Shown piece after piece: positions 1 to 27,240 of a stretch of 64,000 nucleotides of DNA. The DNA lies in assembly GCA_944368925.1 (NCBI GenBank), contig CALVXG010000002.1, positions 1-64,000 on the forward strand, read 5' to 3'. The notes beneath the pieces are model-generated. The model did no database searches and was not told the origin of the DNA. It saw nothing but the letters and a program-made list of their open reading frames with translations. A program made the position numbers and the translations under genes. This DNA is from an uncultured Clostridia bacterium (lineage in GTDB: Bacteria > Bacillota > Clostridia > Christensenellales > Borkfalkiaceae). The number at the start of each line of letters is the position of its first letter. Position 1 is the stretch's first letter.

Positions 1-237
1 GCGCAGAAAGCAAGCGGAGAAAAGGCGGAGTTTCGGGTATTCCTCGATGGGAAGTTTATCTACGATTTCCGCGGCTACGAGGGACAGGCTTGCCAAAAGG
101 ATATTGGACCGTTCATGAAAGACTTGGAGGAAGTCTACGGGGTTCACGTTACCAAGCAAACGGAAATATGGAGCAATCCGGATAAAATCTCCACAATGAA
201 ATATCAGGCAATCAATACCAATAAAAATAAGGCGTAA
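1..237 (+). CDS. DUF2997-like small protein, C-terminal part (5' end off window)
   Basis: The reading frame is open from base 1 to a TAA at 235-237 and gives 78 residues. It has a short beta-rich start (FRVFLDGKFIYDF) followed by G-Y-E-G-Q-A-C and then a helix. This resembles the DUF2997 pattern of a small beta hairpin, a G-F-x-G-x-x-C motif and a C-terminal helix; the assignment is from memory of the family, not from a search. DUF2997 proteins are small, of unknown function, and often sit beside DUF1257 and AAA+ ATPase genes. The AAA+ gene follows after 11 bp, which supports a shared operon. The start codon, and any DUF1257 gene, would lie left of the window. Confidence 0.6.
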   Translation, partial: AQKASGEKAEFRVFLDGKFIYDFRGYEGQACQKDIGPFMKDLEEVYGVHVTKQTEIWSNPDKISTMKYQAINTNKNKA

Positions 238-248
238 GAGGTGATAAA

Positions 249-2087
249 ATGGCTTTAAGTACGACTTTTAACAGATTAAAGAGGGAAATCGGCATCAAAA
301 AATGTGTCATTGTTGAGGGGAACGTCGGTGACGTCTATCTGAATGACAAAAAACAAATCGTAGACCTGAAACAGTATCTTATGGATATGCTGAAGGCAAT
401 GGACTACGATGACGTGCTCTATTGGGATCGGATCGACGGCGTGGACGGTGACGTATCAAGACTTGACGTTGTCGATAAGGTAGAGGTGGAAGGCGATGAC
501 TATTCGTTTGACGATGATGAGGAGGAGACGCCGAAGGAAGAGCAAAAAACGGGTAGCGGACTTTTCAAAGAGCCTGCCGAGATATTTAATATCATCTTCA
601 AAAACTTAAAAAAGCCGAATAAGAAAATTGCGTTTGTACTTAATTGGGCGGACTACCTTTTCAGCGCAGGCGGACAACTCCCTCCCGATGAAAGGGAACT
701 TCTGACTTTGCTCGGAAAAGCCATTAAAGATAAAAAAGTCGACTATCTTTCTTCCGAAGTCAATGAAAGCACGATCGTCCTTATAACGAGCAAACTTTCC
801 ATGTTCCCGATTTCTTTCTATCAGGGCAATCCTGAAGTCGCTTGCCTTACCTTGTCGAGACCGGACAGGGAAGAGCGAGAAAAAATGCTCGAAAAGATCG
901 AGAGCGGATTTGAAGTCAAATTAAAGCCGGGCGAATCTCTTCTTACCAGTGACAAAAAGAACGAATACATCGATATGCTCGACGATTTTACCAACCGCGA
1001 AATCATTCAGATGGCAAGACTTTCAAGAAAAGAAGGCAAAATGCCGTTTGAACAGTTGTATTTACTCTTTAAGTACGGCGAAAAGGACAACCCTTGGGAA
1101 AAACTCGATTATAAGGCAGTTAAAAATATCAAAAAGATTCTTGCCGAGCGAGTTGTCGGACAGGACGAAGCGATCGCAAAAATCGAGAAGGTGGTCGTAA
1201 AAGCGTATATGGGGCTTACGGGAATCCATAAATCTTCTTCCCGTTCAGCACCCAAAGGCGTACTGTTCTTCGTCGGACCTACGGGTGTTGGTAAAACAGA
1301 GCTTTCCAAGGCGCTTGCGAAATTCCTGTTCGGCGACGAGCAAGCTTGCATCCGTTTCGATATGTCCGAGTACGCGCAGGAAAACAGTGATCAGAAGCTT
1401 ATCGGTGCGCCTCCCGGATATGTCGGCTACGAAGAGGGAGGACAGCTCACCAATGCGGTACGAGAAAAGCCTTTCAGCATTATTCTCTTTGATGAGATCG
1501 AAAAGGCGGCAAAGCCCAATCCCCGTATCTTGGATATTTTCTTACAGATATTGGAGGACGGCAGACTGACCGATAGCAAGGGCGAGACGGTGTATTTCAG
1601 CGAAAGCGTCATAATCTTTACGTCTAACCTCGGCGCTTCCGAAGTTTCCTCGAGCGGCAGTAACGAGGAAGTGGCGGATGAGTTTATCAAAATCGTCAAG
1701 AACTATTTTGACAATGAGATCAAACGTCCCGAAATTCTCGGCCGTATCGGTTATAGCAATATCGTGCCGTTTAACTTTATCAAGGATAAAGAATTCAGCG
1801 TAAAGATCGCACGTTCCAAACTCCGTCCCGTACAAAAGGCAATATTGGAAAAATATCGCATAGATCTTGAATTTGAAGACGAGCTTAAATTTATCAACTA
1901 CATATTAGGGGGAGCCGATAGCAGCAAGGGCGGTCGAGATATTCTCAATGCTATTAACGATAAACTCCTCGACGAACTCGCTATGTTCATGTTTGAAAAC
2001 AAACAAGATCTATCGTCATTCAAGGGCGCTAAGATTCTCGTTAAGACAGTGAAAGACGGACTCGAATTCAGCTTTGAAAATGATTAA
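249..2087 (+). CDS. two-module AAA+ ATPase, ClpB/ClpC-type C-terminal module
   Basis: 612 residues. The C-terminal half is a complete AAA+ module of the ClpA/B type: Walker A GPTGVGKT at 343-350, pore-loop motif GYVG near 390-393, Walker B IILFDEI at 411-417, sensor-1 TSN at 458-460, an RPEILGRI arginine-finger segment near 493-500 and a sensor-2-like GGRD near 557. The N-terminal 280 residues contain VLNWADYL and STIVLITSK, which look like Walker B and sensor 1 of a degenerate AAA module with no P-loop, and an acidic insert at 81-100. The N-terminal substrate-binding and middle domains of ClpB are absent, so this is not a standard disaggregase. A good ribosome site (AAGAGGTG) precedes the ATG. 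The radical SAM gene overlaps its end, suggesting coupled translation. The remodelling role is inferred; the target is unknown. Confidence 0.8.
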   Translation: MALSTTFNRLKREIGIKKCVIVEGNVGDVYLNDKKQIVDLKQYLMDMLKAMDYDDVLYWDRIDGVDGDVSRLDVVDKVEVEGDDYSFDDDEEETPKEEQKTGSGLFKEPAEIFNIIFKNLKKPNKKIAFVLNWADYLFSAGGQLPPDERELLTLLGKAIKDKKVDYLSSEVNESTIVLITSKLSMFPISFYQGNPEVACLTLSRPDREEREKMLEKIESGFEVKLKPGESLLTSDKKNEYIDMLDDFTNREIIQMARLSRKEGKMPFEQLYLLFKYGEKDNPWEKLDYKAVKNIKKILAERVVGQDEAIAKIEKVVVKAYMGLTGIHKSSSRSAPKGVLFFVGPTGVGKTELSKALAKFLFGDEQACIRFDMSEYAQENSDQKLIGAPPGYVGYEEGGQLTNAVREKPFSIILFDEIEKAAKPNPRILDIFLQILEDGRLTDSKGETVYFSESVIIFTSNLGASEVSSSGSNEEVADEFIKIVKNYFDNEIKRPEILGRIGYSNIVPFNFIKDKEFSVKIARSKLRPVQKAILEKYRIDLEFEDELKFINYILGGADSSKGGRDILNAINDKLLDELAMFMFENKQDLSSFKGAKILVKTVKDGLEFSFEND

Positions 2088-2622
2088 GTTCAACATTGCA
2101 AGCATCAATACCTGTACCGAAGCGGAAGGTCCATATAAAAGGTTATGTATCTGGTTTCAGGGTTGCAACATCCGTTGCCCGGGGTGTTGCAATCCTGATT
2201 ATCAAGCATTTGAAGCACGACATATTATGTCACTCGAGGATTTAATAGAAGTAATTAAGGAGGCAAAAACTCAGTTTGGTATAGAAGGTGTGACCTATTC
2301 GGGCGGCGAACCTACCTGCCAACAGAACTTACCGCTTTTGACAAAAGAGATCAAGTCGCTCGGACTCGGCGTTATATCCTTTACAGGAAGAATGTATGAG
2401 GACGTTTCCGAAATTTTGGAAGGCTGTGATGTCGTATTGGACGGCTCTTTCAAAGAATACTTGCACGAGACGAAGAGAAGACTTTTGGGCTCGAAAAATC
2501 AGAGGATTATATGTTTGACTGAAAGATACAAAGATTGCATCGACAATTGGTTTGCCGATCACAACAAGGTAGTAGAAGTAAGCGTAGGATCTAAAATAAT
2601 TGCAAACGGGGATAAATTTTAA
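2080..2622 (+). CDS. NrdG-like 4Fe-4S radical SAM protein
   Basis: About 180 residues from the ATG at 2080, which overlaps the AAA+ stop by 8 bp; a TTG two codons earlier is also possible. The motif GCNIRCPGC gives the CX3CX2C cluster-binding triad (C29, C33, C36), and YSGGEP follows at about 93-98. This layout and short length are typical of activating enzymes such as NrdG, which bind one 4Fe-4S cluster and S-adenosylmethionine and generate a glycyl radical in a partner. No glycyl-radical enzyme is visible nearby, so the substrate is unknown; it could be one of the neighbouring proteins. Similar single-cluster proteins are reported beside DUF2997 and AAA+ genes. The family call is firm, the role is not. 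Confidence 0.8.
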   Translation: MIKFNIASINTCTEAEGPYKRLCIWFQGCNIRCPGCCNPDYQAFEARHIMSLEDLIEVIKEAKTQFGIEGVTYSGGEPTCQQNLPLLTKEIKSLGLGVISFTGRMYEDVSEILEGCDVVLDGSFKEYLHETKRRLLGSKNQRIICLTERYKDCIDNWFADHNKVVEVSVGSKIIANGDKF

Positions 2623-2627
2623 TACTA

Positions 2628-3761
2628 ATGAAATATCTGTTTTTTGACATAGAATGTTGCGATGGTGCTCACATTTGCGAATTCGGATACGTATTGACAA
2701 ACGATAAGTTTGAAATCTTGGATAGAGATCTTTTCTTGATGAATCCCGAAAGAAAATTTAATTTAACAGGAAGAAAAGATCAACGGGATTTGCAGTTACA
2801 TTTTTCGGAAGAGGAATATTATAACAGCCCTCTTTTCACGGAATATTACGGAAGAATCAAAAATCTTATCGAGGCGAAAGACCAATTAGTAATCGGACAT
2901 GCTATTTCTAATGATGCAGGTTTTTTGCGTACTGCCTGTAGAATTTATAAGCGATCTCCTATAAATTTTGAATTTTACGATAGTCAAAAAATGTATTCGG
3001 AGTTCTTCAATAATAAAAGTAGCATATCCTTGGAAAACGCCGGTGAAAAGCTCCATTTGGAAAGGGTTAATTATTTACATAAGAGTGATGACGATGCCTT
3101 TTTAACGATGACATTGGTTCAAACGATGTGCAAATTGATGGAGTTACCGTTAGAGCAGTTTATTCTGTTGTGTCCAACCTCAAAAGGTGAATCAAAATGG
3201 AATAAAATTCATTACTTTTCAGAAGACTTTAATGAAATAGTTAAAGCAATTGCAACAAGTAAAAGATGGATTAGCAATGCAAAAAAAGACAAATGTATCA
3301 GAAAATTTATTGAGAAAGTTAAGCCGAGAAGTGCTATTATCAACAGTGCCTTAACAGGGAAAAAGATATGTTTTAGCCCTGTTTTTGAACGAGAACAAAC
3401 AATACTTTGTCTTAAACTTATTCAGATGATCGTAAATCATGGTGGAACATATAATACAAAAGTCTCCGAAAATCAATATTACGTGAAAGACGATGCAGAC
3501 GATCCGGAAAAACACGGAACTCGCTATCATCACTTCGTTGAAGTTGTGGATGTAAATCAGAAACAAAAAGTGATAAGCTATGATGATCTTTTATGCATAT
3601 TAAAAACATCTTGGAAAGAACTGGAGAATATGGATATTCCTGAATTGCCGAAAGAGGGAAGAGAGATGCAAGAGGAATCAAATCGTGGTCTAAAAGGAAC
3701 AACAATAGGCGAAATTTTGGCAGCACGAGGGATATTACTTGAACCTGACCAAGCGAAATAG
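2628..3761 (+). CDS. DEDDh 3'-5' exonuclease with C-terminal BRCT-like domain
   Basis: 377 residues. Residues 1-165 form a DnaQ-like exonuclease: FFDIE (D7, E9), GHAISND (D96) and HKSDDDA (H151, D156), so all four acidic residues and the catalytic histidine are present. Residues about 235-325 (LTGKKICFSP, a helix, NHGGTY, then KHGTRYHHFVEVVD) match the BRCT pattern, including the conserved GG turn. The middle has no recognised domain, and the last 45 residues look like a linker plus short helix. The gene follows the radical SAM gene by 5 bp in the same operon. It would trim DNA or RNA 3' ends, with the BRCT part placing it on a DNA or protein target. Lower GC than downstream housekeeping genes suggests transfer. 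Confidence 0.72.
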   Translation: MKYLFFDIECCDGAHICEFGYVLTNDKFEILDRDLFLMNPERKFNLTGRKDQRDLQLHFSEEEYYNSPLFTEYYGRIKNLIEAKDQLVIGHAISNDAGFLRTACRIYKRSPINFEFYDSQKMYSEFFNNKSSISLENAGEKLHLERVNYLHKSDDDAFLTMTLVQTMCKLMELPLEQFILLCPTSKGESKWNKIHYFSEDFNEIVKAIATSKRWISNAKKDKCIRKFIEKVKPRSAIINSALTGKKICFSPVFEREQTILCLKLIQMIVNHGGTYNTKVSENQYYVKDDADDPEKHGTRYHHFVEVVDVNQKQKVISYDDLLCILKTSWKELENMDIPELPKEGREMQEESNRGLKGTTIGEILAARGILLEPDQAK

Positions 3762-3905
3762 ATTTTATTTTGGATAAACAGCTAGTAAGAAAGAAAAACA
3801 TCTAAACAATATTAAAGTTTGCTTTTCTTTTAGAGACTATAATTGAAATTTTTAAGGTAGTTATCGTTTTGTTTTAAACCACAAAATTTATTTAATTGGC
3901 ACTGT

Positions 3906-3963
3906 GGCGTGTGCTTGTCTATGACAAGTGGCGTTGCTGCGCTCCGCCAGACAAGCACACGCC
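3906..3963. repeat. 15-bp perfect inverted repeat with 28-nt loop (element 1 hairpin)
   Basis: GGCGTGTGCTTGTCT at 3906-3920 is the exact reverse complement of 3949-3963. The loop holds a second partly complementary segment with GACAAGTGGCG. The hairpin lies in the 350-base gap after the exonuclease gene; apart from it the gap at 3762-4111 shows no gene. A similar GGCGTG(T/C)GCTTG hairpin lies behind the second Rep gene at 10500-10606. It could be a single-strand origin, a nick site or a transposon end; the sequence does not decide. Confidence 0.7.
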
Positions 3964-4213
3964 GCCACAAAAGAATAAGGCGAAACGGAAAGCGAAAGCG
4001 AAGCGGAGTCGCCCGCTGAACCGCTTGGGCGAACTTCCGCTTTTTCGCTCTCTCGTGTTTTTCCGTGTATATTGCCTTATTGTATTTTCTCTGTCGTAGT
4101 GCTTTGTCTATACCCTCCGAACATTGCTTTTTCGGGGGCGCAGGTTAGCATAGTTCCTCGCATAAGTCAACGGTCGTAAAATCGTCGCTGAAAACACCAA
4201 TAAAACGAACTTA

Positions 4214-4249
4214 CAGCCAAGTAAGGAATTTCCTTGCTTGGCTGTTTTT
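4214..4249 (+). terminator. intrinsic terminator-like hairpin
   Basis: CAGCCAAGTAAGGA (4214-4227) pairs with TCCTTGCTTGGCTG (4231-4244), one mismatch, followed by TTTTT. It lies in the leader of the HTH gene, and copy B keeps an equivalent hairpin, so it may be an attenuator and not just an end of transcription. Confidence 0.6.
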
Positions 4250-4401
4250 GTGTCTTTAAAGGCTTTCTATGACTTAAATGCAACGATTTTTCTCTTTGCC
4301 GTTGACTTACGCATACCTACTCTAAAATCACCGTAATATACCGTCCTATGCTCCTTCGCCCGTTGCCCGAAAAAGGCAATAAACGTTCGGAGGAATAGAA
4401 A

Positions 4402-5070
4402 ATGGAAATGTTGGTAACAAAGTTCTCAAAAGGTAAGTATCGCAACGAAGGAGCGTTGTTTGCAGAGCCTATCTCTGCCGGCAATGTCAAACTCATGGGA
4501 GAGATGATTGCATTGCAAGCACTTCGTACCGTCAAAAAGTACGACATGAAAGTCGCAGACAGACTGTATATCGGTCTCATAAAAGATTTGCATCACATGA
4601 ACGAGATAGACTACACCGTATCGGACGGATACGACGTTGCTCAGACGGCAAGTTGTTTCCTTTGGCAATTTGCAGGGAGAAAAGTATCCGAAATTTACGG
4701 CAAAGACAGGCGTGGTAAAGAGATTACAATAAAACTCGCTTGTTATCGAGAGGTGGACAGATTTATTGACGGCTTGCGTAACAGAGCAGACAGACACGGA
4801 ATCATCGAATACATAGACTTTACCGATTACAAGGCATTGCCCATGGATCCCGTAAACTGCTTTGAACAAGAACAGACGGATTATACAAAATACGACGCAC
4901 TGGTTGAAGCATTGCAACTCTCCGCATTGGAGCTTGCTATCCTCAACTGCTACATGAACGGAATGAAACAAGGTGCAGTATGTTCTGAGCTGGGTATAGG
5001 AAGAGGAACCATCAATCACAGAAAAGCAAGTATACGGAATCGTTACTACTCGCTTTACGGACAATTTTGA
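4402..5070 (+). CDS. helix-turn-helix protein of a mobile element (copy A)
   Basis: 222 residues. The C-terminal 60 residues (LSALELAILNCYMNGMKQ, then VCSELGIGRGTINHRK) look like a sigma-70 region 4 or LuxR-type helix-turn-helix. The N-terminal part is not recognised. Start: ATG after TTCGGAGGAATAGAAA, a good ribosome site. A close paralogue lies at 26581-27240 on the other strand; most residues match, including the first nine. Such proteins precede replication and recombinase genes in clostridial integrative elements, so control of element genes is likely. An activator or sigma-like role is inferred. Confidence 0.65.
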   Translation: MEMLVTKFSKGKYRNEGALFAEPISAGNVKLMGEMIALQALRTVKKYDMKVADRLYIGLIKDLHHMNEIDYTVSDGYDVAQTASCFLWQFAGRKVSEIYGKDRRGKEITIKLACYREVDRFIDGLRNRADRHGIIEYIDFTDYKALPMDPVNCFEQEQTDYTKYDALVEALQLSALELAILNCYMNGMKQGAVCSELGIGRGTINHRKASIRNRYYSLYGQF

Positions 5071-5155
5071 TATCCCAATAAACTACATAACTCCTTAAAG
5101 GCAGTTGCTTGATTGCAATTGCCTTATTTTTTTGCCATGACCGTGGACTTTTACC

Positions 5156-5328
5156 GATTTTGTGGCTTTTAAGTAGAGAGATTTTTAGTTAGGGGATTAA
5201 TTTTTGACATTTTCATGGTTTCTAATTGAGGGGGTCCATTTCAGTCGTTTTCGTGGCTATTAAGTGTAAGACAAAAATTATTTTGCGGAAACAACCCCAT
5301 AACGGCTGTTTTCGTGGCTACTAAATAG
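5156..5328 (+). repeat. four iteron-like direct repeats upstream of the Rep gene
   Basis: The motif TTTTCGTGGCTAYTAAGT recurs with changes at about 5156-5176, 5208-5228, 5246-5266 and 5307-5327. Spacings are 52, 38 and 61 bases. The repeats lie between the HTH gene and the Rep gene, where Rep-binding iterons of an origin are expected. The gap 5071-5525 otherwise holds only the ribosome site of the next gene. Confidence 0.6.
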
Positions 5329-5525
5329 AAACCATTTCTTCAAAGTGGCAAAAAACTTGCCGGTTTGACATTTATGCTATGGCTGAAAAAGTTGAAGAAA
5401 CTTTTTCAAATAGGAAAGAAACCTTCCTATTTAATGAATATTATGTTGGAAACTTTTGCAAAGTCGCAAAGACCTTGCGAGTTTGCGGGATATAAAAGAA
5501 AAAACGAAAAGGAGGACAAAGAACA

Positions 5526-6416
5526 ATGGGATTCAGAGCAGCCAAGATTTCCTTTGACGGAAGTCATTACATCGCAACACCGAAAGAGAACTTTCCGCAA
5601 GGGAAAAAGCGACGACGATCTTCTCACCCGACATCCGAACAAGAGACAGAACGAAAGGAGCAATTTGAAACGGCTTACAGGGAAAGTCAACAGCTACCAC
5701 GTAAAGAGCGGAAAGACTATGTAAATCAAGCTATGGAAGTAAAGATACCCGACGAGGAACAACGGCAGGAATTCGTAGAACGCAACAGCGAACGGAAGAA
5801 GATAAACGCTATCCGAAGAAAAGTCAGACTGTCTAAAAAGGCAAACTTACAGACTTGGAATTTCTTTTGCACTTTCACCTATTCGGACGAGAAGCATACG
5901 GAAGAAAGTTTTAGAAAATCGCTCAGGAACACGCTCAAACACCTTGTTAACCGCAAAGGCTGGAAGCATATCGGCGTATGGGAACGCGGAGGCGATACAA
6001 ACCGCCTGCATTTCCATGGTATCTTCTATATTCCGCCAAACGGCATGGTCGGAGAACTCATTGAGATAAGGGATTACAGCACAAAAGACAACCGAATGCA
6101 GACGGCAAGTCAGAATACCTACTTTCTCGAACGGTACGGCAGAAACGACTTTCAGAAGTTAGTATTACCGCACGAAGTCGGAGACTCTCTAAAGTATCTA
6201 ATGAAGTACATAGAGAAATCCGGTGAAAGGCTTGTTTATGGCGGGAAGTTACCAGCCTACTTTGAATCGGACGTTTTAGACGAGGACATTATCGTCCCAT
6301 ACGGGATAGACGACAGAAAAGCAGTATTAGCGGACGATTTTCTTTGTATGGTAGAGGGCGAGATTATGGGCAGAGTAAGTCCGGATGTCATAGAGAAAAT
6401 GCCGAAAGTCAACTAA
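5526..6416 (+). CDS. HUH-type replication initiator (Rep), element 1
   Basis: 296 residues, start ATG after AAAGGAGG. NRLHFHGIFYIP contains HxH, the metal-binding U-motif of HUH endonucleases, and YLMKYIEKSGE carries the tyrosine plus lysines of motif 3. FFCTFTYSDE in front is the usual motif 1 strand. This layout is that of rolling-circle initiators related to microvirus VP4 and many plasmid or IME Rep proteins: the protein nicks one strand at the origin and stays bound through tyrosine. The N-terminal 90 residues are basic and may bind DNA. A second Rep at 9369-10370 is clearly homologous (same motifs, same GAWERGGDTNRLHFHG-like block), so two elements lie side by side. Replication or mobilisation of the element is the inferred job. 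Confidence 0.8.
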   Translation: MGFRAAKISFDGSHYIATPKENFPQGKKRRRSSHPTSEQETERKEQFETAYRESQQLPRKERKDYVNQAMEVKIPDEEQRQEFVERNSERKKINAIRRKVRLSKKANLQTWNFFCTFTYSDEKHTEESFRKSLRNTLKHLVNRKGWKHIGVWERGGDTNRLHFHGIFYIPPNGMVGELIEIRDYSTKDNRMQTASQNTYFLERYGRNDFQKLVLPHEVGDSLKYLMKYIEKSGERLVYGGKLPAYFESDVLDEDIIVPYGIDDRKAVLADDFLCMVEGEIMGRVSPDVIEKMPKVN

Positions 6417-6605
6417 ACTTACCTTTCGCCTTAAGGAGCGTAAACGATTGGTCACCTTTTTACAAGGGTAAAGTGCATTGGTTTCACCAACCCTTGCAAA
6501 AACGAATGAAAAGACTTGAAAAAGAAAGACTTTTGCCCAACCGTTTATTTTCGCTCCGCCGAAAGGCAAAAACACAAAAAAAACTAAAAAAGGAGAATTG
6601 AATTT

Positions 6606-6812
6606 GTGAAAACAAACTCAGCAAATAAGCAAACTTGCACAAGCGTTGAGGATTACGAGGCAAATTGCTATCAGCTTTTTCCTTCGATCAGCAAGCGTAA
6701 AAACATCGGCGGAAAGACGTATTTCGTCCGCAGGTATTTCAACGGCGATAAAGACTTTGAAAAGTCCATGAAGAGTCTTGCATCGCAACAGACTTTTGAA
6801 AATAAGAGGTGA
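6606..6812 (+). CDS. TnpW-like small protein
   Basis: 68 residues, GTG start with AAAAGGAGAA about ten bases upstream; it ends 4 bp before the recombinase gene. The middle, NIGGKTYFVRRYF, followed by a lysine-rich helix, resembles the small TnpW proteins that precede large serine recombinases in clostridial transposons. Function in that family is not settled. The position next to the recombinase supports the call more than the short sequence does. Confidence 0.55.
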   Translation: MKTNSANKQTCTSVEDYEANCYQLFPSISKRKNIGGKTYFVRRYFNGDKDFEKSMKSLASQQTFENKR

Positions 6813-6816
6813 CGTT

Positions 6817-8448
6817 ATGAAACAGAAAAACTATATCGCAGGATTGTATTTCAGACTTTCCCAAGAGGATGAAAGACAAGGCGAATCGGTATCCATCGAA
6901 AACCAAAGAACCATGCTTCGCAAATATGCCGAAGAACACGGCTTTGAAATTCACGGCGAATACATAGACGACGGCATATCCGGTACTACTTTTGATCGTC
7001 CGGAAATACAAAGACTTTTAGACGACGCTAAAACGGGAGTTATAAACACGATAATCGTAAAAGACTTATCCCGCTTCGGAAGAAATTACATTGAGGTCGG
7101 ACAGTACGTCGATTATGTGTTTCCTGCTTTCGGGATACGGTTTATAGCCATACAAGACAATGTAGATACGGCAAACCGTGACAGCGGTGCAATGGAAATG
7201 ATGCCCATTATGAATGTCTTTAACGAGTGGCATGCCGCCAATACAAGCAAGAAAATCCGTGCCGTAAAAAGGTCTCATGCCATAGAAGGCAAATTCAGCG
7301 GTTCGAGAACACCGTATGGCTATCTGAAAGGCACAGACGAGAAAAGAACATTCCAGATTGACGAGGAAACAGCTCCGACGGTTCGTAGAATATTCGAAAT
7401 GTACGCTTCAGGCATAAGTCCGCAAAGGATTGCCGAAATCTTTAATGAGGAAGATATACCAAGTGCAGGAAGACTTGCTTTCCTAAGAACAGGAAGAAAG
7501 TATAACAATAATGAGCATCCCTATTGGGAGCAGGCAACGATTAGACCGATATTGAGAAATATTGCCTATATCGGGCATTTGGCGCAACAAAAGACTTCTG
7601 CTGTTTCGTATAAAAACCATAGGCTGATAAGAAAAGACAGAAGCGACTGGGTAATCGTGCATAATACGCACGAGCCTATAATCTCTCAGGAATTGTGGGA
7701 TAGAGTCCAGGACAGAATGTCATCACAATCGCATGGCAGAAAAATGCACACGGGAATTACACATCCGCTTTCAGGATTTTTATACTGTGCGGATTGCGGA
7801 GCAAAACTTAAAATGGGATATGTGTGGGATAAAAGCATAAATGATTACCGATACAACTTTAATTGCGGACGTCATGTCCGTTACGGAAAGGCATATTGCT
7901 TCTCTCACCATATCACCTCAAACACTTTGGAAAAAATTGTACTGGATGATATCAGAGAAATGGCGAAAAGGATAGTTCTTGACGAAGATTCTGTAAGAGA
8001 AGAGTTTGTTCGACATAATGCTGAATTGAAAGACCAAAGCATAAGGGCTATCAAAAAAGAATTACAGACAAAGCGTAAACGCACGGAAGAGTTATCCCGC
8101 TTGATTCAGGTTGCCTATGAAGACAGGGTGAAAAGCAAAATGCCTGAAGATATTTGTTTAAGCCTCATACAAAAATATTCCGATGAGCAAAAATTGCTTG
8201 AATCGGAAATAAAAACGGCAGAAAATAAGTTGCAGGAAACAGAAACCGCACGACAGAACGCAGATGATTTCATCCGCAGTATAAAGAAATATTTTGATGC
8301 GCCGAAACTTACTCGAGAAATGTGTTATGAACTAATAGAAAAAGTCGTAGTCGGCGGGCTTCCAAAAATAACAGGCAAAGAACGTGAAATACATATTGTC
8401 TACAAGGTAGATATATCATCGGTTTTACGATACAAGTTTAATAAATAA
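6817..8448 (+). CDS. large serine recombinase
   Basis: 543 residues from the ATG at 6817, which has AAGAGGTG as its ribosome site; an upstream in-frame ATG at 6778 lacks one. Residues 7-20 (IAGLYFRLSQEDER) hold the catalytic serine (S15) and R13; KDLSRFGRNYIEVG carries the conserved arginines of the catalytic domain. A recombinase domain follows, then a zinc ribbon (YCADCG and NFNCGRHV) near 330-370, and a long coiled coil rich in K and E near 400-490. This is the TnpX/TndX class, which integrates and excises elements without host factors. It is intact by sequence. It is the last gene of element 1, the usual place next to an attachment site. A weak terminator follows. Confidence 0.92.
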   Translation: MKQKNYIAGLYFRLSQEDERQGESVSIENQRTMLRKYAEEHGFEIHGEYIDDGISGTTFDRPEIQRLLDDAKTGVINTIIVKDLSRFGRNYIEVGQYVDYVFPAFGIRFIAIQDNVDTANRDSGAMEMMPIMNVFNEWHAANTSKKIRAVKRSHAIEGKFSGSRTPYGYLKGTDEKRTFQIDEETAPTVRRIFEMYASGISPQRIAEIFNEEDIPSAGRLAFLRTGRKYNNNEHPYWEQATIRPILRNIAYIGHLAQQKTSAVSYKNHRLIRKDRSDWVIVHNTHEPIISQELWDRVQDRMSSQSHGRKMHTGITHPLSGFLYCADCGAKLKMGYVWDKSINDYRYNFNCGRHVRYGKAYCFSHHITSNTLEKIVLDDIREMAKRIVLDEDSVREEFVRHNAELKDQSIRAIKKELQTKRKRTEELSRLIQVAYEDRVKSKMPEDICLSLIQKYSDEQKLLESEIKTAENKLQETETARQNADDFIRSIKKYFDAPKLTREMCYELIEKVVVGGLPKITGKEREIHIVYKVDISSVLRYKFNK

Positions 8449-8453
8449 AAACG

Positions 8454-8487
8454 AGCGTATGGGTTTATATCAACTCATACGCTTTTA
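8454..8487 (+). terminator. terminator after the recombinase
   Basis: AGCGTATGGGTT (8454-8465) pairs with AACTCATACGCT (8472-8483) with one wobble, followed by TTTT right behind the recombinase stop codon. Confidence 0.55.
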
Positions 8488-8634
8488 CATTACTCTCTGA
8501 TAGAGTGTCCATAAAATAAAACGGCTACTGTCAGATAAGACAGACGAGAGATCGTCTGTACTTTGTCTGCGGTCACGGTCTTTTTTGTTTTTCCAAAAGG
8601 TTTGCTTAAAAAAAATTTTTTCGCAAAAAGGGCC

Positions 8635-8878
8635 GTCAAAAGGATATCTCACACTCCTTTATAGTGAAGGGGAAAATTTTGTAAATACGACAGAAAGTGT
8701 CGTATTTATGTGGTTTCCTATAATTGCAAAGAAAAAAGTTGTGTGAAATTTTGCGTCAGACCGTCACGTTTTCAAACTATGTGTCCTTGTGATAGTGAGA
8801 GGAAAATTTTTTAAGAAATTTTTACGGAGAGGGTTGTCAAAAGCATATGTCCCACTCCTTTATGGTGAAGAGGCAAAA
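8635..8878 (+). repeat. direct repeats and hairpin upstream of the second HTH/Rep operon
   Basis: The 42-base segment at 8635-8676 recurs at 8836-8878 with few changes (GTCAAAAG.ATAT, then CACTCCTTTAT.GTGAAG). A weaker third copy lies at 8767-8806 (TTCAAACTATGTGTCC, then GATAGTGAGAGGAAAA). Between them AAATACGACA (8683-8692) pairs exactly with 8698-8707. Together they fill the gap 8488-8894 and could be the replication origin or control region of element 2. Confidence 0.6.
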
Positions 8879-8894
8879 CGATCGGGAGGAAATT

Positions 8895-9203
8895 ATGACG
8901 CTTGAACAAATCAAAGAACAATTAAAGACGATACGCCTGTACTATGCAGACAAGGCTGGTTTCGACGCGGCATTTTCTGTCCTTCCGCACAAGGTCATAA
9001 CTCTTGCCGAGGAGTATGCAGAGATCATTAGCAACGCACCGCTGGATCTCTATCTGATCTATTTCTATCTCTACGTCAAGGGTTTGACACAGGAAGCCGC
9101 AGCGGAAGAGATGAATTACAGTTCAGAGTATGTCCGACAGAAAAATAAAAGTCTGTTGTTGTTTCTCCAACAAAAAATCAACGAAAAGGAGGTGCTTGCA
9201 TGA
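8895..9203 (+). CDS. small sigma-70-region-4-like HTH protein
   Basis: About 102 residues from the ATG at 8895, preceded by CGGGAGGAAATT; the frame is open further up but without a ribosome site. The C-terminal half (LTQEAAAEEMNYSSEYVRQK) is a helix-turn-helix of the sigma-70 region 4 type seen in mobile elements. It overlaps the next gene by ATGA. It probably regulates the element 2 genes. Confidence 0.65.
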   Translation: MTLEQIKEQLKTIRLYYADKAGFDAAFSVLPHKVITLAEEYAEIISNAPLDLYLIYFYLYVKGLTQEAAAEEMNYSSEYVRQKNKSLLLFLQQKINEKEVLA

Positions 9204-9379
9204 AAGAAATCAAATTAAAAGAAAATCCGCTCGGGATAAAAATATTTGCCATAGGAGAACCAAGCATAGACAATATGCCTGAGGAGGAGTATAGCTTATT
9301 CGCTTCGTCCCTGGCGTTGCGGATCAATGAATATGTGACAAAATCAAAGAACGACATGGAGGATCAAGATGCCATATAG
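9200..9379 (+). CDS. small hypothetical protein between HTH and Rep
   Basis: 59 residues. The ATG overlaps the stop of the HTH gene, with AAAAGGAGG about seven bases upstream, and its end overlaps the Rep start by 11 bp. Both overlaps and the strong ribosome site argue that it is translated. The protein is acidic in its second half (MPEEEYSLF); no family is recognised. Confidence 0.6.
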   Translation: MKEIKLKENPLGIKIFAIGEPSIDNMPEEEYSLFASSLALRINEYVTKSKNDMEDQDAI

Positions 9380-10370
9380 CAAAGTAAAAGTTTATTCGGA
9401 CGGGAATCACTACATAGGCATCCCTTATGAACCGAATCCGCGGGCAAAAAAACGTCGCCCGCGCAAGGAGGAAATCATCAACGTAAAAGAACCAACCGAA
9501 CAGGAAACGCAAGGTGTTTCCGATACGGAAAATCCTGTGCTTTCGACGCAAAATCAGGATGACGTATGCGAAAAAAGCGCGCCGCCTGCCGTCAGGCAGA
9601 TGACGCGTAAAGAACTGTTCGATGAATTGTATCTGAAAAGTTTAACGCTGAAAAAGCAGGAACAAAAGCCGTTTGTGGTAAAGGAAATGCTGCCCTATTT
9701 CAGGGACGGCATTTCTTGCCGTGTGTTCGTAGAAGAAAACTTTGCTCGTAAGCACCGCAACATGATCTGCCGCAGGACAAGGCTTTGGAGAAAGATCAAT
9801 CACCAGCGTTTCAATTATTTTGTCACTTTCACCTATTCGGATGAACTCCACGACGAGGAAAGTTTTGTAAAGAAACTCATGCGCTGTATCCAGCATTTCA
9901 GCTCGCGCAAAGGCTGGCTATATATTGGGGCATGGGAACGCGGCGGAGATACGAACCGACTGCATTTTCACGGGATCTTCTATATCCCCGACGGCGCATT
10001 GCCGGGCGAGATAGAAACGCTGCGCGACTATGATACGAGGGCAAAGAAAATGCGTACCATTCAGCAAAATACCTTCTTTGCAAAAAAATTCGGACGGAAT
10101 GAATTCCGTCCTGTTTGTCATGCCTCAGAACTTCCCGAAATGGTACAATATCTGGTGAAGTATATCGAAAAATCGGGAGGAAAACTCATTTATTCGAGAG
10201 GGCTTTATCAGTATTTTGTAACGGATATCATGGACGATGACGTCGTATGCCCGTATGGATTGGAGGACAGAAAGCTCCTGCTCTTTGACAGCTTCGGATG
10301 CTGGATCGACGGAGAGTACATCGGGCAGACGAGCCCGGAAGTGATCGCACGTCTCCCGAAAGTAACATAG
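9369..10370 (+). CDS. HUH-type replication initiator (Rep), element 2
   Basis: 333 residues, start ATG overlapping the previous gene with GGAGG just upstream. It has the same core as the first Rep: YFVTFTYSDE, NRLHFHGIFYIP with HxH, and YLVKYIEKSGG with the motif 3 tyrosine. Ends of both proteins also match (GQTSPEVIARLPKV against GRVSPDVIEKMPKV). The N-terminal 100 residues are longer and rich in E, Q and P, unlike the first Rep. No recombinase follows, so element 2 seems to have lost its integration gene or to have relied on that of element 1. A long hairpin lies 130 bp downstream. Confidence 0.8.
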   Translation: MPYSKVKVYSDGNHYIGIPYEPNPRAKKRRPRKEEIINVKEPTEQETQGVSDTENPVLSTQNQDDVCEKSAPPAVRQMTRKELFDELYLKSLTLKKQEQKPFVVKEMLPYFRDGISCRVFVEENFARKHRNMICRRTRLWRKINHQRFNYFVTFTYSDELHDEESFVKKLMRCIQHFSSRKGWLYIGAWERGGDTNRLHFHGIFYIPDGALPGEIETLRDYDTRAKKMRTIQQNTFFAKKFGRNEFRPVCHASELPEMVQYLVKYIEKSGGKLIYSRGLYQYFVTDIMDDDVVCPYGLEDRKLLLFDSFGCWIDGEYIGQTSPEVIARLPKVT

Positions 10371-10499
10371 AAAGGCACAACAAAGGCAAGGAAGAAAGCG
10401 ATGCGCGGCGGGAAAAGCGGAAGCCGATCCCAAGCGGGTCAGCGGGACGGCTCCGCGGCCGCCGCGCTTTCTCGTTTGCCTGTTGGTCTGTTTGTTCGG

Positions 10500-10606
10500 G
10501 GCGTGCGCTTGGCTTCGGCGCCCGCGAGCGCAGCGAGCGGGTGACGGCGCGGCGACAGCCGCACCGTCAGCTCCGCCGCCGACTTGTATAAAGCCAAGCG
10601 CACGCC
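10500..10606. repeat. 16-bp perfect inverted repeat with 75-nt loop (element 2 hairpin)
   Basis: GGCGTGCGCTTGGCTT at 10500-10515 is the exact reverse complement of 10591-10606. The loop is very GC-rich and itself structured (GCCCGCGAGCGCAGCGAGCGGG). It shares its first bases with the 3906-3963 hairpin. It could be a nick site, a single-strand origin or an element end. Confidence 0.7.
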
Positions 10607-10929
10607 TTACTGCCATTTTTTAAATTTTGGAGGAAAAATAAAAAATGAAATACATGGATTGGTTAAACGAATGACTAAAAAATTATGTGCTGCCTTCTGT
10701 GAAAATACGAACAAAAGAATATCAATTTGGATTGTGTCGTGGAAAATAATCCCATTACAAGAAAGTATTTTAATTGTATCAAATGCGGAGGCTGCTGCTC
10801 TTCTTAATGATTTCTTTAAGTTACATGTTTGATGTTTTTCTTTAAATAAAGAAATATAGAAACTGGGTATATTTTAGTGTCGATAAAAGCAAAAGTTCGG
10901 AGTTGGGTATAGGATTAGGGTAATATGGT
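10607..10929. other. gene-free AT-rich gap
   Basis: Short frames occur but none has a convincing ribosome site or recognisable product. I see no repeat or terminator. The base composition drops sharply from the GC-rich hairpin before it, which marks a junction between element 2 and the carbohydrate locus. Confidence 0.5.
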
Positions 10930-11736
10930 TTAAGTTTTATTGATATTTTTATCCCTGTATTTTTTTGGAGTTATAGATGTCATTTTTTTGAAAAGCGTAG
11001 TAAAATAAGAAACTTGCTCAAACCCACAATATACGGAAATAAGCGAGATCGGAAGAGATGAGGTGCTCAATAAATCTTTTGCCATTGCAATACGTTTCTC
11101 GAGTATATATGTTTTGGGCGGTAAATTCTTTTTTTGCTTAAAAAGGATGCGGAAATGGTCCGGACAGTATCCCGTATCATAGGCAAGTTTATTCAGGTCA
11201 ATATCGGAAGTATAATTTTCATCAATATAAGAAATTGCAAAGTCGATAGCATCTCTTTTTTCGGGGGAAGCAACTTTTGTTCTCCTTATTTCAATGAGCA
11301 TTTGTGTCAGAAGGCTTTCGATTGCCAACGTATATTTATAGTTCTTTTTTTTATATTCTTCAATGATCTTCTGTACATAGTAGTAAATGAAATGGTTTAT
11401 ATCGAGTATATTTTCCGTGTCTATAATAAGATCGTCTTCCGACAGGTCAAAACCAATTGCTACAATAGACGCATCCTGGTTATGGACTTCATTGTGCAAG
11501 GTATGAGGCGGTATAAAGGTGAATGAATGTGAAGAGAATTTGTGAGATGGTAAGTTGGATAGATTCTCGTTATAAAATTTTTGATAGTTTCCTTGAATCG
11601 CAGTCTTTGAGTAAGCGGAATAGAATGCACCGCTTGCCTGAATATAATAAACGAATTCGTAACAATTGTGCCCATGGGGAATAATGATCCGATCCTTTTT
11701 GTAGTTATTAATGATTAAAAATTTGAATTGAACCAT
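10930..11736 (-). CDS. AraC-family transcriptional regulator
   Basis: About 268 residues from the ATG at 11736, which has GGGGGA four bases upstream; in-frame ATG (11748) and TTG (11751) lie before it without a ribosome site. The N-terminal part (IIPHGHNCYEFVYYIQ) is a cupin-type sugar-binding domain. The C-terminal 100 residues hold two helix-turn-helix units (DIDLNKLAYDTGYCPDHFRI and ISLISVYCGFEQVSYFTTLF) ending in TPKKYR, the AraC signature. It is divergent from the importer operon, with 184 bp between the two start codons, and very likely controls it in response to the imported sugar. Confidence 0.9.
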   Translation of the reverse strand: MVQFKFLIINNYKKDRIIIPHGHNCYEFVYYIQASGAFYSAYSKTAIQGNYQKFYNENLSNLPSHKFSSHSFTFIPPHTLHNEVHNQDASIVAIGFDLSEDDLIIDTENILDINHFIYYYVQKIIEEYKKKNYKYTLAIESLLTQMLIEIRRTKVASPEKRDAIDFAISYIDENYTSDIDLNKLAYDTGYCPDHFRILFKQKKNLPPKTYILEKRIAMAKDLLSTSSLPISLISVYCGFEQVSYFTTLFKKMTSITPKKYRDKNINKT

Positions 11737-11859
11737 GGATTCCCCCATCAATAAAAAGAAATATAATTGACAAATTCAATTATAAATTAGAGTGTCTTTT
11801 TTGTCAATATTAAAGTGAATAATCTCGGAAAAATGAAATTTTCTTAACGGTTTTATGGA

Positions 11860-11888
11860 TTGAAATAGCCCTCATTATATTGTATAAT
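11860..11888 (+). promoter_or_regulatory. promoter of the carbohydrate operon
   Basis: TTGAAA (11860-11865), 17 bases, TATAAT (11883-11888). It lies between the divergent AraC gene and the first permease, 33 bases before the start codon. The AraC operator should lie between 11760 and 11859, which is AT-rich and contains TTGACA-like and TTGTCAA segments facing each other. Confidence 0.75.
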
Positions 11889-11920
11889 AATTGTGAAATT
11901 TGAATAAGGAGGAGGGGCTC

Positions 11921-12871
11921 TTGACCGATTTTGTAGAAAAAACAACCAGAAAACGTAAAAAATGGACAAGGAACGATAAACAAGTTTATTTTATGGCGAT
12001 GTGTGGCGTTGCTTTCCTGTGCGTTTTTGCATATTTGCCAATGGTAGGCACTTTACTCGCTTTTAAGGAAGGGGACAGGGCAATTGATATTTATCAGGTT
12101 TTACTTACCGGGAAATGGTGCGGATTTGATAATTTTGCAAACCTTTTGACGGATCGCAAACTGACAGACATCGTTATAAATACGCTGGGTTTAAATTTGT
12201 TATTGCTGGTCTTTAATTTCCCCGCTCCCATCATCTTCGCTTTGTTGATTAACGAGGTAACGCACCTGCGATACAAAAAGGGTATTCAAACAGTTTCAAT
12301 GTTTCCTCATTTTATTTCTTGGACCATTTTCGGGGCAATTATCGTGGCCTTAACGGATATGACGACAGGTATTTTTAATCCGATTTTGGAGGCTATCGGT
12401 CTTTGTTCGCAGGAAAATCCGATCAATTTGGGGGAGGCGCAATATTTTTGGGTGGAAATGATTATTGCTTCCATTGTTAAAGGTGTCGGATGGGGCTCAA
12501 TTGTGTATATGGCTGCAATCGCGGGAATTAGCCCCGAATTATATGAAGCAGCGCAAATTGACGGTGCAAACAGGTTTCAAAGGGCCGTAAAAATAACAAT
12601 ACCTATGATTGCACCTACGATTACAGTATTTCTTTTATTGCAAATATCGAAATTGCTTGGAAATTCTTATGAACAATTTTACTCCATGCAAAACGCGATA
12701 AACTTGGAAAGAAGCGAAGTATTAGCAACTTATATTTATAGAAAAGGATTCACACAGAGAAGATATTCTTACGCCGCTGCACTTGGATTGTGCGAATCGA
12801 TCATATCTGTTTTGTTGTTATTATTCAGCAATATTTTAAGTAAAAAATTTACTGGCAGGGGGGTGTTTTGA
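11921..12871 (+). CDS. sugar ABC transporter permease, LplB type
   Basis: 316 residues from the TTG at 11921, eight bases after AAGGAGG; an earlier TTG at 11900 precedes the ribosome site. Six hydrophobic segments are visible, with the EAA loop YEAAQIDGANRFQRAVKITIP near 210-230 (in two parts), which contacts the ATPase. The N-terminal 30 residues are basic and cytoplasmic. With the next gene it forms the membrane pore for a mono- or oligosaccharide importer of the LplB/YtcP group. The stop overlaps the next start as TGATG. Confidence 0.9.
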   Translation: MTDFVEKTTRKRKKWTRNDKQVYFMAMCGVAFLCVFAYLPMVGTLLAFKEGDRAIDIYQVLLTGKWCGFDNFANLLTDRKLTDIVINTLGLNLLLLVFNFPAPIIFALLINEVTHLRYKKGIQTVSMFPHFISWTIFGAIIVALTDMTTGIFNPILEAIGLCSQENPINLGEAQYFWVEMIIASIVKGVGWGSIVYMAAIAGISPELYEAAQIDGANRFQRAVKITIPMIAPTITVFLLLQISKLLGNSYEQFYSMQNAINLERSEVLATYIYRKGFTQRRYSYAAALGLCESIISVLLLLFSNILSKKFTGRGVF

Positions 12872-13779
12872 TGAAAAATAGCGCCTTTCTCTCGGGGTTC
12901 GCATTAAATAAGAAAACATTGCGTCACTTCAACTGGTTTGACATAATAAACTATATCTTTTTAGCGGTTTTGGCATTTATAACGTTATATCCGTTTTGGT
13001 TTGTTTTAATAGGTTCTTTCAGTCAAGGCGAGGATTATTCTGGTGGCGGCGTATGGGTTTGGCCAAGGATCTGGAGCTCCGCAAGTTATATCGTGGTTTT
13101 GAAAGACAGCCGTTTTTGGATCGCTTTGCGTAATACGGTAGTAAGAACAATATTGGCAACGGTTTTGTCGGTGGGTTTTACTTCAATGGTCGCATATGCA
13201 ATGTCTCGCCCGAATTTGAAGCACAAGCCGTTTTTTCAATGGGTAAACTTGTTTACAATGTTTTTCAGCGGCGGATTGGTGCCATATTATTTGGTAATTG
13301 TCGCGATCGGACTGTATGATACTTTTTGGGTTTATATTTTACCCAGTATTTATTCGGTCTACAATATGATTGTATTGTCGAGCTTTTTTCGCTCGATCCC
13401 TGAAAGTATAAGGGAGTCAGCGGTACTGGACGGGGCAGGGGATTTCCGTATCTGGTTACAAATGTATATGCCATTGTCCAAACCGGCTTTGGCAACAATT
13501 GCGCTATGGGTTGCCGTAGGACATTGGAACAGTTATATGGCGACTATGTTATATACGCGCGATGCAAATCTCACGACTTTGCAGTATTTCCTGATGAGAT
13601 TGATCAAGGAAGCAAATGTCAGTTATGAAGGCATTACCTGGGAGATCCGTAACGACGTTACACCGCAAACGATTTCTTATGCGGCAATTGTCGTTGCAAC
13701 GATTCCCATTCTCATGGTGTATCCGTTTTTGCAGAGATTCTTTACAAAGGGAATCATGATCGGTTCATTGAAAGGATAA
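12871..13779 (+). CDS. sugar ABC transporter permease, YtcP/LplC type
   Basis: 302 residues, ATG in TGATG overlap with the first permease and GGGGGG upstream. FLAVLAFITLYPFWFVLIGS is the first membrane segment, the EAA loop is IRESAVLDGAGDF, and the end MIGSLKG is typical of this family. It is the second half of the membrane pore. No ATP-binding subunit is encoded in the operon, so a shared ATPase from elsewhere must drive the importer, as known for MsiK-type systems. Confidence 0.9.
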   Translation: MKNSAFLSGFALNKKTLRHFNWFDIINYIFLAVLAFITLYPFWFVLIGSFSQGEDYSGGGVWVWPRIWSSASYIVVLKDSRFWIALRNTVVRTILATVLSVGFTSMVAYAMSRPNLKHKPFFQWVNLFTMFFSGGLVPYYLVIVAIGLYDTFWVYILPSIYSVYNMIVLSSFFRSIPESIRESAVLDGAGDFRIWLQMYMPLSKPALATIALWVAVGHWNSYMATMLYTRDANLTTLQYFLMRLIKEANVSYEGITWEIRNDVTPQTISYAAIVVATIPILMVYPFLQRFFTKGIMIGSLKG

Positions 13780-13790
13780 AAGGAGGTTCA

Positions 13791-26580: not shown

Positions 26581-27240
26581 TCATATTGTGCCATAACGAT
26601 CTGAATATCTTTTTTTGATACTTCTTTTACGGTGGTTAATGGTACCCCTGCCGATGCCGAGTTCGGCGCAGACTTCCGATTGGCGCATACCGTTCATGTA
26701 GCAGTTCAGGATGGCAAGCTCCAATTCGGTAATATGTAATGCTTCCAGGAGTGCGTCATATTTACTGTAATCGGTCTGCTCGTGTTCGAAGCAATTTACG
26801 GGATCCATGGGCAGTGCTTTATAGCTTGTAAAATCGATATAGGACGTTTTCTCCATCTTTCTGCGGTAACGCATTAGCTGTCCGTCTACTTCCCGATAGC
26901 AGGCAAGTTTGATCGTTATCTCTTTTCCTCTGCGGTCTTTGCCGTAAATATCCGATACCTTTCTGCCGATGAACTGATACAGAAAGCAGATTGCTGTCTG
27001 CGCTACGTCGTAGCCGTCCGATAAAATATAATTGACCTCGCCCATATGGTGCAGGTCTTTAATTAAACCGATATAATACTTATCCGCGATTTTCCAATCG
27101 TACTTCTTTAAGGTGCGAAGAGTCTGCAATGCGATCATCTCGCCCATGAGCTTTACATTCTCATTTGAGATGAGTTCCGCAAACAATTCACCTTCATTCC
27201 GATACTTCCCGTTTGAGAACTTTGTTACCAACATTTCCAT
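26581..27240 (-). CDS. helix-turn-helix protein of a mobile element (copy B)
   Basis: 219 residues, a close paralogue of the protein at 4402-5070: same start, the same PMDPVNCFE and ELAILNCYMNGM blocks and the same C-terminal helix-turn-helix (VCAELGIGRGTINHRK). It has an intact frame and ribosome site (CGGAGGATG upstream). It is alone, with no Rep or recombinase next to it. It converges on the carbohydrate operon. Confidence 0.65.
   Translation of the reverse strand: MEMLVTKFSNGKYRNEGELFAELISNENVKLMGEMIALQTLRTLKKYDWKIADKYYIGLIKDLHHMGEVNYILSDGYDVAQTAICFLYQFIGRKVSDIYGKDRRGKEITIKLACYREVDGQLMRYRRKMEKTSYIDFTSYKALPMDPVNCFEHEQTDYSKYDALLEALHITELELAILNCYMNGMRQSEVCAELGIGRGTINHRKRSIKKRYSDRYGTI

Follow-up and report, generated by a model that had tools for sequence, protein, structure and literature searches.

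Mokosh systems consist of the helicase MkoA with MkoB, or of the fused protein MkoC. Helicases of the CnuH family are typically accompanied by a downstream gene encoding a scaffold fused to varied nucleases, according to passages of PMC11090510, and passages of PMC7159879 describe FtsH/MoxR-vWA ternary conflict systems with a radical SAM gene, the product of which is thought by the authors to modify a peptide effector. Here we describe an operon of an uncultured Clostridia bacterium of the Borkfalkiaceae (GenBank assembly GCA_944368925.1), the downstream half of which opens a 64,000-nucleotide stretch of DNA, hereafter the window (contig CALVXG010000002.1, positions 1 to 64,000 of the forward strand). 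Its five core genes encode an Upf1-like helicase, a HEPN-type effector, a coiled-coil partner, a AAA+ protein and a radical SAM protein. Judging by its proteins and, for the defense role, by its genomic context, the operon is probably a new form of helicase-coupled RNase defense, directed against foreign nucleic acid, in which AAA+ and radical SAM proteins make up an unusual control module.

The operon resembles the CnuH-CnuE pairs of Type II and III-A CoCoNuTs, as described in passages of PMC11090510, in having a large Upf1-like superfamily 1 (SF1) helicase followed by a scaffold with an exchangeable C-terminal nuclease, and further in its coiled coils and predicted RNA target. It differs in its ClpB-like AAA+ protein, its radical SAM protein, its coiled-coil partner and the use of PIN as an alternative effector. 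This likeness to CnuH and CnuE is one of description rather than of direct sequence comparison. An Upf1-like SF1 helicase is indicated by AAA_11/AAA_12 and an IGHMBP2-family profile on the helicase of a related locus, L049. As for a winged helix-turn-helix (wHTH) scaffold with a nuclease, HEPN is present; the effector model has no PDB match at E<=0.001 that would show a wHTH. Neither McrB nor McrC could be assigned among the five core proteins scanned, genes outside the operon being unchecked, and the McrB profile PRK11331 scores 17.6 bits on the AAA+ protein, as against 637. Because McrB and McrC, which define CoCoNuTs in those passages, are not among the core genes, we do not file the operon there. 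The TerY-P triad, frequent but not core in CoCoNuTs, is likewise missing from the five core genes; several unassigned gene clusters recur in the flanks.

MkoA is the PADLOC model that fits the L049 helicase best (7.3e-87; MkoC, 3.9e-22), which recalls Mokosh as presented in passages of PMC11291487. However, the MkoA match falls in two stretches, the effector is HEPN or PIN, and the matches listed for the remaining core proteins that were scanned include no kinase family. Since none of these other proteins matched a Mokosh model (E<=1), an assignment to Mokosh was rejected. With the FtsH ternary systems, as far as passages of PMC7159879 describe them, the operon shares the pairing of a AAA+ chaperone with a radical SAM enzyme in a conflict system, whereas their AAA+ protein is of the FtsH type and the present operon has a helicase-RNase half and no vWA or MoxR among its five core genes. 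We found no paper that joins a helicase-effector pair to a AAA+/radical SAM/coiled-coil triad, in a search that left subscription papers, most preprints and newer defense databases outside its coverage, and the combination is absent from passages of PMC7159879, PMC10853773, PMC11090510 and PMC11291487.

Results

Window position 1 is the first base of its contig (C2), and the stretch shows the downstream half of the operon. The remainder was located by searching the same genome with the proteins of L049, which gave helicase and effector matches near the end of contig C6. The end of C6 is identical to the window's first 77 bases and the coiled-coil reading frame runs on across the join; the two were joined because of this exact overlap and continuous frame, and not on the basis of reads. 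The helicase gene (1523 amino acids [aa]; C6 130224-134795) and the effector gene (730 aa; C6 134798-136990), which carries an RN-x3-H motif, were recognized by their L049 matches. The partner gene (361 aa in the joined frame) runs from C6 136987 to the contig end and then through window 1..237 (+). It is followed on the same strand by genes for the AAA+ protein (612 aa; 249..2087; Pfam AAA_2, 6.6e-51), the radical SAM protein (180 aa with an ATG start; 2080..2622; Fer4_12, 1e-24) and a DEDDh exonuclease (377 aa; 2628..3761), with an 11-base gap, an 8-base overlap and a 5-base gap between the window genes in order.

A preliminary description of the window, made from its letters alone, had read this region as four tightly spaced genes, and for the AAA+, radical SAM and nuclease genes the Pfam matches and the spacing bear this out. 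Together they make up the downstream half of an operon that is real, conserved and present on both chromosomes and plasmids. The small first protein of that description turned out to be the last 78 aa of the partner, its reading frame being open at the 5' end. Leftward extension, proposed as a way to find DUF1257, led instead to the helicase and HEPN genes. Upstream of the helicase lies a helix-turn-helix (HTH)-like gene (172 aa; C6 129702-130220) from the same cluster as an L049 gene with HTH matches under the Pfam cut-offs.

Conservation was assessed by scanning genome contigs for relatives of the AAA+ protein, which gave 76, of which 46 close ones were kept; the loci are partly non-independent (L032, L033 and L034, for example, are close to each other). 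Helicase and effector are present in 40 of the 46 close loci, and in 38 of these 40 the order helicase-effector-partner-AAA+-radical SAM is kept on one strand, including two loci (L041 and L044) with split frames. The exceptions are L055, truncated within the AAA+ gene, and L050, where the partner was located by hand and the radical SAM gene is on the other strand. Five of the remaining six loci are cut by contig ends; the sixth, L021, has partner, AAA+ and radical SAM genes without helicase and effector. Median intergenic gaps within the core are -8, -4, 11 and -20 bases, with longest-frame starts that exaggerate the overlaps. In L044, a record titled Malacoplasma, the helicase and effector frames (2187-9922) are probably split because UGA is read as Trp.

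The records are labeled as Clostridia, Bacilli, Acholeplasmataceae, Malacoplasma, Helicobacteraceae, Prevotellaceae, Spirochaetes, Cytophagales, Planctomycetota and others, most being metagenome bins for which single taxon labels may be wrong. Within the window's own family, a full-length close AAA+ relative occurs in three of 251 genomes (own included; three genera); matches at E<=1e-60 were listed in six of the 251, and three partial ones (45-55% identity) were left uncounted. Of the 2258 plasmid records with a match, 12 span 80% or more of the AAA+ protein. On single plasmids of the proteobacteria Moellerella, Acinetobacter, Polaromonas and Photobacterium, the five-gene order is present in all four, and in each the helicase, partner, AAA+ and radical SAM proteins are recognized by the close-locus profiles. 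The operon is also carried by one complete chromosome (L029) and by long contigs. At the DNA level, the 15 listed of 1466 E. coli genome records are all Clp-type genes, with coverage of the query below 80% throughout; a diverged operon would escape such a search. None of 146 phage records covers 80% of the AAA+ query, and the ten listed match its AAA+ core only. IMG/VR yielded six relatives, one of them close: a viral-collection contig (L116) that encodes a 76% identical full-length AAA+ protein.

The helicase of the window genome is 59% identical to that of L049 (1539 aa), which matches the IGHMBP2-family profile at 3e-49 (168 bits, under the cut-off of 348.9). The adjacent effector has a HEPN-type C-terminus: among 30 members (E<=0.1), DUF4145, a HEPN family, matches 20 (best 2.7e-5), HEPN_RiboL-PSP three and HEPN_MAE_28990 one. 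The RN-x3-H motif is present in 39 of 40 effectors in addition to the window genome's copy, and the effector model has C-terminal helices. This combination of an RN-x3-H / Rx4-6H motif with a C-terminal helical domain is that of a HEPN RNase, an activity that is thus predicted. The effectors of the four plasmids end instead in PIN_4 (4/4; E 1.5e-19 to 7.3e-24), and the N-terminal parts of the HEPN and PIN types can be aligned across 429 columns (one hhalign comparison, with a probability of 93.5 and E 2.2e-7). One RNase fold has thus been swapped for another on one scaffold, and this is the strongest sign that RNA would be the target. The size of the 730-aa protein had suggested that a glycyl-radical enzyme might be hidden in it, an idea dropped once the HEPN C-terminus was found. 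The effector of L050 (6755-8830) is without the HEPN motif, and the oppositely oriented radical SAM gene of this locus lies at 13641-14210.

The partner ends in a conserved domain with the pattern G-x-x-A-x-F ... G-x-x-x-Y-x-F-x-x-Y-x-G-x-x-C-x-x-D. The residues of this pattern, among them G309, Y313, F315, Y318, G320, C323 and D326 (L049 numbering), are invariant in all 46 long homologues, 42 of them from related loci and four from plasmids. The domain is homologous to that of six coiled-coil proteins encoded near distant AAA+ genes (hhalign probability 93.7 with E 1.8e-7, falling to 82.6 when the plasmid sequences are left out). These six in turn match a second group of eight coiled-coil proteins (probability 97.1, E 5e-11), to which the partner domain has no direct match (2.3). 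In Foldseek, the spermine-synthase N-domain was the best match of the partner model (E 9.1e-4, 94 columns) with low TM-scores, and was not used; AdoMetDC and TBP folds stood below the spermine synthase chains in the same list.

The AAA+ protein is, by its sequence, a single-ring, ClpB-D2-like protein with its own N-terminal domain of about 280 aa, the first 294 aa having no PDB match at E<=1. Among 47 AAA+ proteins checked, the Walker A pattern (VGPTGVGKTE; 1272..1301, +) is present in all, Walker B (LFDEIEKA; 1485..1508, +) in 46 and GYVG (1416..1427, +) in 44. GYVG is a pore-loop motif of Clp-type unfoldases. The D2-type core, Walker motifs and GYVG are shared with ClpB/ClpA, PDC-M37B and DolB, and the PADLOC models PDC-M37B (9.7e-33) and DolB (1.2e-19) match the core only. 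ClpB proper was ruled out by one ring instead of two and by a profile score of 254 bits, far under the cut-off of 1232 and confined to the D2 part; the protein's own N-terminal domain further sets it apart from ClpB/ClpA.

The radical SAM protein carries the CxxxCxxC motif of the [4Fe-4S] cluster (2164..2187, +). This motif, which places it in the radical SAM superfamily, is present in all 49 proteins checked (45 from the loci and the window after a length filter, and four from plasmids). Pyruvate formate-lyase activase and NrdG are its closest solved structures by sequence and its closest NCBIfam profiles; it differs from both in not reaching the family cut-offs and in that no glycyl-radical enzyme is seen in the operon. 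Viperin (pVip) was also considered and rejected, since its match (24 bits, 5.8e-6) is weaker than those of NrdG and PFLA. The leading candidate for its substrate is the invariant tail of the partner.

Rates of change differ along the operon. In one clade (10 genomes, 45 pairs), median identity is 93% for the AAA+ core, 85% for the AAA+ N-terminus and 81% for the last 85 aa of the partner, as against 68% for the radical SAM protein and 60% for the helicase, with the effector at 50% and the remainder of the partner at 49%. We read this contrast as pointing to a conserved motor-adaptor contact beside a fast-evolving sensor-effector half. Identity of the AAA+ protein to that of two other genera is 92% and 90%, in comparison with 49% and 42% for an rRNA methyltransferase-like protein and 63% for a threonine synthase-like protein present in one of the two (both named by reading). 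An argument for transfer from AAA+ identity alone was rejected, as the helicase and effector are just 59% and 48% identical and much of the high AAA+ identity may be owed to constraint on that protein.

The neighborhoods of the operon are rich in matches to defense models. At E<=1e-15, 117 neighbor proteins from 35 loci match 250 overlapping PADLOC families, whereas 103 control proteins from 15 stretches of related genomes match nine, including MzaA, mad3, mad8, reverse transcriptase and SspH models. The 25 of the 250 families that were listed are each matched by three proteins and are those of SNF2-type defense helicases and DNA methyltransferases. In L013, a CARF/Csx1-like protein (514-1143; PADLOC 5.7e-81) is encoded upstream of the operon.

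The exonuclease is an accessory and not a core gene. It exceeds the Pfam cut-offs for RNase_T (25.2 bits; cut-off 24) and DEDDh_C (28.8; cut-off 27), and its catalytic-type residues D7, E9, D96, H151 and D156 are invariant in four of four aligned homologues; a BRCT domain is possible (17.3 bits against a cut-off of 21.3). It also matches PHROG 192, a phage DNA polymerase exonuclease subunit (9.8e-16), the PADLOC model of a CRISPR-associated DEDDh protein (3.6e-11) and, weakly, the RNA deadenylase CNOT7 (E 0.044). The preliminary description had counted it with the other three genes. Its presence beside the operon does extend to other genomes, directly after it in L027 and L052 and after an RNase III-like fragment in L034, but it lies near the operon only here and in three of the 46 other loci, and its family is widespread away from the operon, with matches at E<=1e-15 in 113 of the 297 genomes of the order; the genome described here has a second copy. 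The five nearest stand-alone relatives were fetched with their flanks. No operon core gene was found at E<=1e-5 around L110, L111 and L113 (6-9 kb per side), except for one radical-SAM-profile match in L111, nor around L112, for which the flanks were 8 kb and 1 kb; the L109 gene extends to the end of its contig. An RNase III-like gene is near the operon in seven of the 46 loci.

Triads also occur apart from the helicase and effector. L021 encodes a partner frame (264 aa), AAA+ and radical SAM protein in this form at 9200-12365. The radical SAM profile finds a gene in 11 of 27 distant AAA+ loci, several of which have genes reading as FHA, PP2C or kinase. AAA+/radical SAM/coiled-coil sets of this distant kind were seen in L060, L078, L066, L064, L059, L081 and L126, several with FHA, zinc-ribbon, PP2C and kinase-like genes (by reading). 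In the last of these, an Aristaeella plasmid, FHA, kinase and phosphatase are annotated and a DUF4011 protein is encoded upstream. From their composition, the distant triads look like a reusable control module.

Discussion

On balance, and with moderate confidence, we interpret the locus as a mobile defense operon with five core genes and accessories, in which a helicase-RNase half would act as sensor and effector and the AAA+ protein, radical SAM protein and partner would form a control half. An RNA-targeting defense is favored because RNase folds are exchanged, the neighborhoods are rich in PADLOC matches and occurrence is sporadic. The nucleic-acid role, possibly in defense, that was first suggested for these genes is therefore upheld by the helicase, the HEPN effector, the HEPN/PIN exchange and the neighbors, while the parts of it built on DUF2997 and on the exonuclease as a core gene fell away. 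In the mechanism that we propose, the Upf1-like helicase would engage RNA that is foreign or abnormal, or else nucleic acid in single-stranded form. It would be coupled to the product of the adjacent gene, an N-terminal scaffold with an exchangeable C-terminal RNase (HEPN here, PIN on proteobacterial plasmids), and the activated effector would cut RNA, so that the invader or the cell is stopped. The variable N-terminus of the partner may bind the fast-evolving helicase or effector and its conserved C-terminal domain the slow-evolving ClpB-like ring, which would remodel the complex and thereby arm or reset it. A modification by the radical SAM protein, most likely on the invariant Cys, Gly and aromatic residues of the partner's C-terminal domain, may license the complex, with the DEDDh exonuclease appended as an accessory in this genome.

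A more specific version of this scheme is tentative and, taken as a whole, somewhat unlikely: the radical SAM protein would modify the partner's invariant Cys/Gly/aromatic tail, and only then would the Clp-like ring arm or reset the helicase with its HEPN/PIN-interchangeable RNase, the triad being reusable and wired elsewhere to kinase, phosphatase and FHA-like genes.

Several observations weigh against a defense operon of this design. The HEPN-protein profile detects only one of the four PIN proteins (hmmsearch, E<=10); the effector model has no Foldseek match at E<=0.001 and the partner one weak match; and profiles of the effector, partner and exonuclease find no solved structure by sequence at E<=0.001. 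The PADLOC comparison counts overlapping families and not genes, with controls unmatched in genome or position. The control half may also have a wider job, given the isolated triad of L021 and the missing HEPN motif and displaced radical SAM gene of L050, and related triads elsewhere are accompanied by signaling genes.

The operon could alternatively serve the cell's own RNA quality control or stress response, in a manner resembling nonsense-mediated decay or ribosome rescue, with the helicase and HEPN protein clearing stalled RNA and the Clp-like ring the nascent protein. An Upf1-like helicase with an unfoldase and an RNase would suit RNA surveillance, as would the kinase- and phosphatase-like genes adjoining distant triads. 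We consider this rather improbable, however, for an operon that is sporadic (three of 251 genomes of the family), travels on plasmids, has a fast-evolving helicase and effector, and sits among neighbors rich in PADLOC matches. Less likely again is cargo that serves a mobile element itself through exclusion of rival elements or stabilization. Recombinase-like genes on both sides (C6 127943-129493 and window 6778-8448, by reading), the truncated start of a further helicase copy on contig C36, close to a recombinase-like fragment, and the plasmid copies would agree with this, but the operon is also found in long contigs and a complete chromosome, and element exclusion is itself a form of defense, so that the defense interpretation would still be compatible.

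Two further alternatives both appear very improbable. One is the DUF2997/DUF1257-type system first proposed for the cluster. A similar pattern does occur in the partner C-terminus, which also gives a weak collinear alignment with one PF11211-matched protein (E 0.012 in a single-sequence hmmsearch; probability 2.3 in hhalign). Profile searches nevertheless failed to recover the homology: the 78-aa tail has no Pfam match at E<=1, DUF2997 is not among the 25 of 53 families listed for 33 partner-family members (E<=0.1), no PF11211 match exists in the genome at E<=0.001, and the genes upstream are those of the helicase and HEPN effector. The label was rejected on these Pfam results, and a weak resemblance of pattern remains. 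By the other, the radical SAM protein would be an NrdG-type activase of anaerobic ribonucleotide reductase that is here by chance. NrdG is its best NCBIfam profile at 83.8 bits, a score that remains under the NrdG cut-off of 126.1, and no glycyl-radical family is among the listed Pfam matches of the operon proteins scanned; the identity was rejected on these two points. Chance also accords poorly with the gene order: in 38 of the 39 full loci that allow judging, the radical SAM gene comes after the AAA+ gene and shares its strand.

If the proposed defense role is correct, bacterial defense would gain a five-gene system that combines a helicase-RNase pair with an unfoldase and a radical SAM enzyme. 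For the short NrdG-like radical SAM proteins encoded beside AAA+ genes, it would provide a role and a substrate that can be tested. With HEPN and PIN replacing each other on one scaffold, the predicted RNA target is directly testable. Viperin makes a small molecule; a radical SAM protein that modifies the partner would, unlike viperin, constitute a protein-modification switch in bacterial immunity.

The surroundings of the operon in this genome have further features of mobile DNA. As the preliminary description had noted, element-like reading frames lie beside it, among them the downstream recombinase-like frame mentioned above, to which its upstream counterpart (minus strand of C6) is 24% identical. 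Its remark that the cluster is AT-richer than core genes holds in comparison with 28-41 kb (GC 0.37-0.45 versus 0.52-0.57), but most of 4-28 kb is likewise low (0.36-0.48). The truncated helicase copy on C36 (1948-2265; L148) comprises the first 105 aa, 62% identical to the L049 helicase, and looks like the remnant of a decayed cassette; a recombinase-like fragment (516-755) and a KilA-N-like frame (828-1727) are nearby (names by reading). In the window, two frames read as Rep-like by name only (5526-6416 and 9369-10370), and similar frames of about 220 aa are found at 4402-5070 (+) and 26581-27240 (-).

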